A stretch of 46,405 nt of DNA from Prochlorothrix hollandica PCC 9006 = CALU 1027 (GTDB taxonomy: Bacteria; Cyanobacteriota; Cyanobacteriia; Prochlorotrichales; Prochlorotrichaceae): NCBI RefSeq assembly GCF_000332315.1, contig NZ_KB235941.1, positions 1,016,459-1,062,863 of the forward strand, given 5' to 3'. The notes beneath the pieces were generated by a model that searched no databases, was not told the origin of the DNA, and saw nothing but the letters and a program-made list of their open reading frames with translations. A program made the position numbers and the translations under genes. Shown here piece by piece: positions 37,767 to 40,255 of this stretch (its first letter is position 1; each line of letters opens with the position of its first letter).

Positions 37767-37951
37767 ACGATCGCCCTAGAAAAGGATCGGGGTACCTTGG
37801 CCCACAGTTGGCCCACAGTTGGCCCACAGTTGTCTCAAATTTGTCTCACATTTGTCTCACATTTATCCCGCAGGGGGAAGGTCTAGCCTCTAAGATTAAA
37901 GTACCCTGCCATCCCTGGCACCCCTCCCCCTTCTGGTCACGATTCTGCGCC

Positions 37952-40255
37952 ATGGCCTACGAACCACTGCATCACAAATATCGGCCCCAGATGTTCCAGG
38001 ATTTGGTGGGCCAAACGGCGATCGCCACCACCCTCACCCATGCCCTCCAGCAACAACGCATCGCCCCCGCCTATCTGTTCACGGGACCACGAGGCACCGG
38101 TAAAACCTCCAGCGCCCGTATCTTAGCCAAGTCCTTAAACTGCATTCAGGTCGATCGCCCCACCGCCACCCCCTGCGGCCAATGTGAAGTCTGCCACGGC
38201 ATCATTCGAGGCACCGCCTTGGATGTCATTGAAATTGACGCGGCTAGCAATACAGGCGTAGATAACATTCGAGAACTCATTGAAAAATCCCAATTTGCGC
38301 CGGTTCAATGTCGCTATAAAGTCTATGTGATCGATGAATGTCACATGCTGAGTACCGCCGCCTTTAATGCCCTCCTCAAGACCCTAGAAGAACCCCCCGA
38401 TCGCGTTGTTTTCGTCCTGGCCACCACCGATCCCCAGCGGGTGCTGCCCACCATTATTTCCCGCTGTCAGCGCTTCGATTTTCGACGGATTCCCCTGGAA
38501 CCCATGATCCAGCATCTGCAATACATTGCCCGCCAGGAAAACATCACCATCACAGACCCTGCCGTGACCCTCGTGGCCCAGATCGCCCAAGGGGGCTTGC
38601 GGGATGCGGAGAGCCTGCTGGATCAACTGAGTTTATTGCCCCCCCCCATCACCCCAGAAGCCGTCTGGGATCTGGTGGGAGCCGTGCCAGAGCGGGATCT
38701 CCTGGCCCTAACCCAGGCCATCGCCAGCCAACAACCCGAAACCATCCTTGATGTGGCCCGCCAGTTAATGAACCGGGGCCGGGAACCGCTGATTGTGCTG
38801 CAAAATCTAGCCAGTTTTTACCGGGATTTACTAATTGCGAAAACGGCTCCCCAACGGCCCGATCTGGTGGCGATTACGACGGAAACGTGGCAACAGATGT
38901 GCAGTTTCACCCAGGGAATTAATTTAGATATTATTTTGCGGGGACAGCAGCATTTACGCAGCAGTGAGGTGCAACTTAAAAATACAACCCAGCCTCGGCT
39001 GTGGTTAGAAGTGACCCTCATGGGGTTGCTGCCCAGCACCTTAGGGGCTGCCGCCTCGATCGCTGCCGTTTCCGCCCCCCCCATAGCCCTCGGAACCGTA
39101 CCCCCCGCCGTACCCCCGGTAGTTCCCCCCGCTCCCAGCCCCGCAGCCATGGGTCAGGCTATGGACCCAGCCATGGCGACTTACCCAATGGTTCCAGCGG
39201 CTCCGGCGGCTCCTCCCCAAAGTCCAGGGATCGCCCCAACCCCGCTCCCAGCCCCAGAGCCAGGAACTGCTACCACCGCCGAAGCCACTCCCGACCTCGG
39301 CCAACTCTGGCAACGGATCATGAACCGCTTGGAATCTAAAAGCACCAAAGCCTTGCTGGAACAGCATGTGCATTTAGTCTCGTTCCAGGGTTCCAGGGCC
39401 ATGATTTCCAGCCCCCCAGGACTCAAGGAAATCGTCCACAGCCGCCTGGATCTGATTCAACAAGCCTTTAGCCAAGTGGTGGGCCGATCGGTGGCCATTC
39501 AAGTGGAAACCTTGGCCAAGGCCAGCCCGCCCCCCGGAGTGGTAACCGTTCCTCCGAACCCAGTTTCCCCGCCATCTCCACCGTCCTATGGTTCTCCTGC
39601 CCCACCATCCCCGGTTTCTGCGGCTTATACGGCGGCTCAGTCCGCTGGATCGGCCCATGCGCCCGGAGTAGCCCCCAGTCCGCCCTTACCGACCACACCG
39701 CCAGCCCCGACCCCTGGGACGGCGATCGCCCCCGCTTCCCAGGCTCACGCTCCAGGAACCCCACCGTCCATCGCTCCGGCTCCGGTGGCTCCGGCTCCGG
39801 TGGCTCCGGCTCCTATAGCGTCCGATGCCATAACTACCGGTACTATGGCATCTGGTGCAGTGGCTTCCGGTCCAGTGGCATCTGGTGCAGTGGCTTCCGG
39901 TGCAACCCCAGCAGCCCCTAAGGGTAAGGCTCCCCCAGATCTGCCAACCATACCAACCCCTAGTGCTGGGGTTACCTCCCCGACCGCTGCCCCGAACCCA
40001 ACCACAACTCTCCCAAACCCAGCAACCCCACCCGCTCCGCCGTCTCCAACTCCTACCCCGCTGCCCATAACCCATCCCGCTCCGTCCACCCTGGCAACCG
40101 TGTGGAGTGAAGATGAGGTGGTGGAAATAGCCAAACAGTTCGCCGAGTTTTTTCGTGGAGAAAGGGTGCAGGAAAATCAATTGGAGGAAGAAGCCGTTGA
40201 TCTGGACTATTGGAACCAGTCTCCAGGCGATGATGATGACGATATTCCCTTTTAA
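37952..40255 (+). CDS. dnaX: DNA polymerase III subunit gamma/tau
   Basis: From the ATG at 37952 (MAYEPLHHKYRPQ) the protein has 767 residues. It is the clamp-loader ATPase: Walker A GPRGTGKTS (about 45-53), zinc ligands Cys64, 75, 78 and 81, Walker B VIDECHML and the SRC motif ISRCQRFDF. Domain III follows. A long Pro/Ala-rich linker contains tandem repeats (APAPVAPAPV, ASGAVASGPVASGAVASG), surrounding a short conserved domain (about 440-520). The C-terminal end is DDDDDIPF, like the tip of single-stranded DNA-binding protein. There is no intein, unlike Synechocystis DnaX. An upstream frame would add 48 residues running through repeats, and is rejected. Confidence 0.95.
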   Translation: MAYEPLHHKYRPQMFQDLVGQTAIATTLTHALQQQRIAPAYLFTGPRGTGKTSSARILAKSLNCIQVDRPTATPCGQCEVCHGIIRGTALDVIEIDAASNTGVDNIRELIEKSQFAPVQCRYKVYVIDECHMLSTAAFNALLKTLEEPPDRVVFVLATTDPQRVLPTIISRCQRFDFRRIPLEPMIQHLQYIARQENITITDPAVTLVAQIAQGGLRDAESLLDQLSLLPPPITPEAVWDLVGAVPERDLLALTQAIASQQPETILDVARQLMNRGREPLIVLQNLASFYRDLLIAKTAPQRPDLVAITTETWQQMCSFTQGINLDIILRGQQHLRSSEVQLKNTTQPRLWLEVTLMGLLPSTLGAAASIAAVSAPPIALGTVPPAVPPVVPPAPSPAAMGQAMDPAMATYPMVPAAPAAPPQSPGIAPTPLPAPEPGTATTAEATPDLGQLWQRIMNRLESKSTKALLEQHVHLVSFQGSRAMISSPPGLKEIVHSRLDLIQQAFSQVVGRSVAIQVETLAKASPPPGVVTVPPNPVSPPSPPSYGSPAPPSPVSAAYTAAQSAGSAHAPGVAPSPPLPTTPPAPTPGTAIAPASQAHAPGTPPSIAPAPVAPAPVAPAPIASDAITTGTMASGAVASGPVASGAVASGATPAAPKGKAPPDLPTIPTPSAGVTSPTAAPNPTTTLPNPATPPAPPSPTPTPLPITHPAPSTLATVWSEDEVVEIAKQFAEFFRGERVQENQLEEEAVDLDYWNQSPGDDDDDIPF

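Follow-up and report, generated by a model that had tools for sequence, protein, structure and literature searches.

The window analysed here, a 46,405-nucleotide stretch of the Prochlorothrix hollandica PCC 9006 genome, carries on its forward strand a dnaX gene, which encodes the gamma/tau subunit of the clamp loader. Translation starts at the ATG of MAYEPLHHKYRP, and a longer frame runs from a TTG at 37808. Pfam matched the DNA_pol3_delta2, DNA_pol3_gamma3, AAA and DNAX_ATPase_lid models, the AAA+ clamp loader ATPase domains I–III are present (PF13177, E 1.2e-43; PF12169, E 7.9e-13), and the nearest PDB folds are the gamma subunits of the E. coli clamp loader. From the N terminus, the protein comprises the ATPase domains, a first Pro-rich linker, an alpha/beta domain, a Pro/Ala linker, a helix and an acidic end, with the following coordinates.

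37952..40255, + strand: dnaX, clamp loader gamma/tau subunit, 767 aa (open reading frame and translation, Pfam, PDB folds)
39287..39508, + strand: folded alpha/beta domain, residues 446–519, that follows the first Pro-rich linker (PF23007, STICHEL DnaA_N-like)
39509..40102, + strand: second Pro/Ala-rich disordered linker, residues about 520–717 (pLDDT, alignment)
40103..40168, + strand: conserved helix WSEDEVVEIAKQFAEFFRGERV, residues 718–739 (alignment, AlphaFold, profile)
40169..40228, + strand: short acidic variable linker from helix to tip (helix-to-end distances)
40229..40252, + strand: codons of the SSB-type tip DDDDDIPF, the extreme C terminus of DnaX (sequence)
40253..40255, + strand: dnaX stop codon

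The translated protein ends in EEEAVDLDYWNQSPGDDDDDIPF, immediately followed by the stop codon. The ending that a preliminary description had likened to the C-terminal peptide of SSB was confirmed as GDDDDDIPF before the stop, with the tip at 40229–40252. The same description had a long disordered linker leading to the tip, as in SSB. The linker is indeed disordered (about 200 residues, with AlphaFold pLDDT below 50 over most of 523–716) and mostly variable in an alignment of 37 DnaX proteins, but the conserved helix at 718–739 intervenes before the acidic stretch. The alpha/beta domain at residues 446–519 matched PF23007 with an E value of 4e-10 and is modelled at a pLDDT of about 95–97. Residues 753–767 are again disordered (pLDDT below 50), as expected of a docking peptide; an AlphaFold model with a disordered tail cannot reveal the partner of the tip. 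Pfam found no SSB-type OB fold (PF00436) in DnaX, and the PF00436 matches of the genome lie in three other genes. Programmed frameshifting that would yield a tip-less gamma form was considered and rejected, because dnaX contains no run of six or more A residues; the longest, of five, occurs twice, and there is one T6 at 40148.

We examined how widely the tip occurs. An acidic (V/L/I/M)PF ending was present in 66 of 139 cyanobacterial DnaX tails, with V (39), L (16), I (10) or M (1) before the terminal PF. Variant ends with a terminal F were found in 18 more, comprising 2 acidic APF ends and 16 acidic ends with F but no PF. Position entropy, about 3.6–3.8 bits at positions −9 to −12, dropped to 1.95 bits for the final residue. 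The linker preceding the tip varies among cyanobacterial DnaX proteins, and the distance from helix to end ranged from 22 to 90 residues (median 37; 54 measured tip-bearing proteins), while the PF end stayed constant. Thus, the tip is neither unique to this sequence nor freely varying, outcomes that would have told against the preliminary description, but keeps its sequence and its place in the protein across much of the class. In Symplocastrum torsivum, DnaX runs about 40 residues beyond DDDDIPF, making the tip internal; this read-through reflects either a stop loss or an assembly error. Titles and abstract openings in the open-access literature retrieved by DnaX-directed searches describe no SSB-like tip on DnaX.

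The tip is also specific within genomes. DDDDIPF followed by a stop occurs once in the whole 5.6 Mb genome, and the broader pattern [DE][DE][FLIMV]PF-stop has three matches there: SSB, DnaX and a DnaQ-like exonuclease frame. Across ten diverse cyanobacterial genomes (this one and nine others; 31 of 36 matches translated, from 30 loci plus the G181 SSB), the real genes that close with this pattern were nearly all SSB or DnaX; very short frames and TGG read-throughs made up most of the remaining matches. As a control, we took 80 named loci and the window and compared DnaX with the other open reading frames near dnaX that were 200 aa or longer. A PF tip was present in 27 of 67 DnaX frames, versus a PF end in none of 273 other frames (Fisher p about 6e-22, with shared ancestry ignored); six tip-bearing frames with an internal start were counted as DnaX on the basis of their tails. 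The DnaQ-like frame (G000:C1:596248; locus L220, 1504–2277, − strand), which besides SSB and DnaX is the one gene-like frame of this genome that fits the pattern, ends in NYDDIPF, has an RNase_T match in its first part and is interrupted by one in-frame stop. A relative in genome G009 ends in DTLPF.

The genome encodes three SSB-family proteins (PF00436). A comparison with the genome's own SSB, as proposed in the preliminary description, upheld the likeness, since the tailed SSB (L002) ends in NPNYDDIPF and so shares DDIPF with DnaX. The second SSB (L001) is tail-less, and the third family member (L003, 1501–2025) has a long YD-rich tail that ends in HSLGDF and carries no IPF tip. Among SSB proteins from the lineages sampled for DnaX, 43 of 46 end in IPF. 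The tip of DnaX is no mere copy of that of SSB, since DnaX favours VPF and SSB favours IPF, and its preference possibly reflects a pocket different from that of the SSB-tip receptors.

To date the tip, we used a maximum-likelihood tree of the DnaX N-terminal domain, from which a wrong G020 row was pruned before reconstruction, and a two-state likelihood model. The reconstruction assigned the cyanobacterial ancestor a PF tip with P of about 0.94 and an acidic terminal F with P of about 1.0, values that are only indicative because support is weak on many inner branches and sampling is heavy for the PF-less Nostocales. The tip was seen in both deep and crown lineages of this tree and probably dates to the cyanobacterial ancestor. 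The reconstruction also places many later losses, including in Nostocales and picocyanobacteria, lineages in which SSB keeps its own tip. The check on conservation and age suggested in the preliminary description was answered in two ways: the tip is probably ancestral to the class, yet repeated losses followed, whereas SSB has kept its own. Such repeated loss suggests a function that is useful but dispensable. Lineages without PF often keep acidic ends, and many Nostocales DnaX proteins end in VDDE or similar. Outside the class, 16 complete DnaX tails from outgroup classes stop with the helix block or shortly past it and do not bear the tip. It is likewise absent from DnaX of E. coli, Priestia, Aerococcus, Paracoccus, Arthrobacter, Sinorhizobium and Neisseria. 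Large cyanobacterial plasmids (L340–L349) bear a second dnaX, which in most of those examined adjoins plasmid dnaN, holA, holB or polymerase genes. The tip was absent from all ten plasmid-borne copies examined, as was the helix block.

The helix upstream of the tip has the consensus EVxxAAKxLAxFFNGxVV in cyanobacterial DnaX, with F734 and G736 invariant among 37 aligned sequences and a helix predicted at residues 720–733 (AlphaFold pLDDT about 80–86). In E. coli, the last 23 residues of tau bind Pol III alpha, according to the passages of PMC4703070 that cite Jergic 2007. When a profile of the helix block was slid along E. coli tau, residues 618–635 ranked first of 626 windows, and this segment lies inside or overlaps the polymerase-binding C-tail. 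The same rank-based approach gave a mixed outcome in the other bacterial DnaX proteins, and an HMM of the block returned no significant match in seven non-cyanobacterial DnaX proteins, leaving the E. coli tail undetected. Because position and profile rank agree but the profile HMM makes no detection, the equivalence of the cyanobacterial helix (718–739) with the polymerase-binding tail of tau is suggestive. DnaX from other classes within the phylum also has an (L/F)F.GxV block at its C terminus, and inspection by eye shows one in Bacillota, where Priestia DnaX ends in AKKLFGEDLIEIQE. Its distribution suggests an old, shared C-terminal element of tau.

We also searched for chi and for candidate receptors of the tip. 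Chi (HolC, PF04364) was found in none of 20 cyanobacterial genomes, whereas the same model was positive in E. coli and Caulobacter. PriA exceeded the cut-off in 21 of 22 genomes and RecO in all 22. Presence of these candidate receptors does not account for tip loss, as PriA and RecO occur whether or not a genome has the tip; nor does RecQ, as a long RecQ does not follow tip presence.

The reading that we favour, at a probability of about 0.5, is that the end of DnaX is an SSB-type docking peptide added to tau, which would bind SSB-tip receptors. The peptide would have been gained by the time of the cyanobacterial ancestor, on the C-terminal side of the older helix, so that each tau subunit would display a tip near the polymerase. 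There it could dock in pockets that read the SSB tip, for which PriA, RecO, RecG, RecJ, RecQ and primase are candidates. It may thereby bring receptors to the loader without SSB, or take them over from SSB at the primer end; that tau uses its tip in this way, to hold or exchange SSB-tip receptors, we regard as an even bet. The broader proposal, in which tips of the loader's own allow receptors at the fork to be shared or exchanged between SSB and tau, independently of chi and as an ancestral trait of the class, is more tentative, its chances falling a little short of even. DnaX and SSB need not have identical partners, given V versus I before PF and the failure of PriA, RecO and RecQ to track the tip.

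The main rival to docking in SSB-tip receptors is a contact with the replisome core, either a second contact with Pol III alpha next to the tau helix or one with an OB fold of SSB or the polymerase, in which case the acidic stretch would mimic single-stranded DNA. The position of the tip, a median of 37 residues past the probable polymerase-binding helix, favours such a contact, as does a VPF preference unlike the IPF of SSB. In B. subtilis, moreover, DnaE needs the SSB C terminus at forks (PMC3000357; also cited in PMC3919608). E. coli tau, however, binds alpha by its own tail without such a tip. Acidic residues together with a free C-terminal Pro-Phe are a hallmark of the SSB tip and not of known tau–alpha contacts. 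We consider a core contact unlikely, at something like one chance in four.

More doubtful still is a generic acidic tail that keeps the protein soluble, supplies charge or shields the C terminus from proteolysis, in which Pro-Phe would be retained by descent and not for the sake of a partner. The acidic ends of PF-less lineages and the many lineages that do without a tip are what such a tail would lead one to expect. Pro-Phe, however, is unnecessary for solubility, the last two residues are more conserved than the preceding linker across very divergent sequences, and the PF end stays in place as linker length shifts. Chance resemblance, or an oddity local to the DnaX of the window, is highly improbable: short motifs do arise randomly and about half of the sampled DnaX tails lack the tip, but its occurrence in deep and crown lineages, the pattern search across genomes and the open reading frame control together refute it.

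To our knowledge, little work has addressed how the clamp loader is connected with SSB and the partners of SSB in bacteria that lack chi and psi. An SSB-type tip conserved on tau would offer a concrete and readily testable answer in one major phylum. If the docking reading is true, the SSB-tip code would extend to a protein without OB-fold binding of single-stranded DNA.

The closest known counterpart is the SSB C terminus itself, which reads DDDIPF in E. coli (PMC5872125); in B. subtilis, SSB tips are known to recruit 12 proteins or more (PMC3000357). The DnaX tip is likewise an extreme C-terminal acidic run followed by a hydrophobic residue and Pro-Phe on a disordered tail. It differs in sitting on a clamp loader subunit rather than on an OB-fold protein, in favouring V before PF, in being often lost and in having a conserved helix upstream. 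Among cyanobacterial SSB proteins, passages of PMC3976300 describe the tailed All4779 and the shortened paralogues Alr0088 and Alr7579, a set that resembles the tailed L002 and tail-less L001 of P. hollandica, to which the YD-rich L003 is added; that paper concerns SSB, and those passages do not mention DnaX. With regard to the tau C-tail, the cyanobacterial helix consensus best fits E. coli tau 618–635, but E. coli tau stops eight residues past this segment, whereas cyanobacteria append an acidic linker and the SSB-type tip. Finally, in E. coli, chi links the clamp loader to SSB (PMC13213242, PMC6783573), and the DnaX tip would likewise connect the loader with the network of SSB-tip interactions. 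The link would be turned around, however: the E. coli loader holds the receptor chi and SSB holds the tip, whereas in cyanobacteria the loader would itself present the tip.
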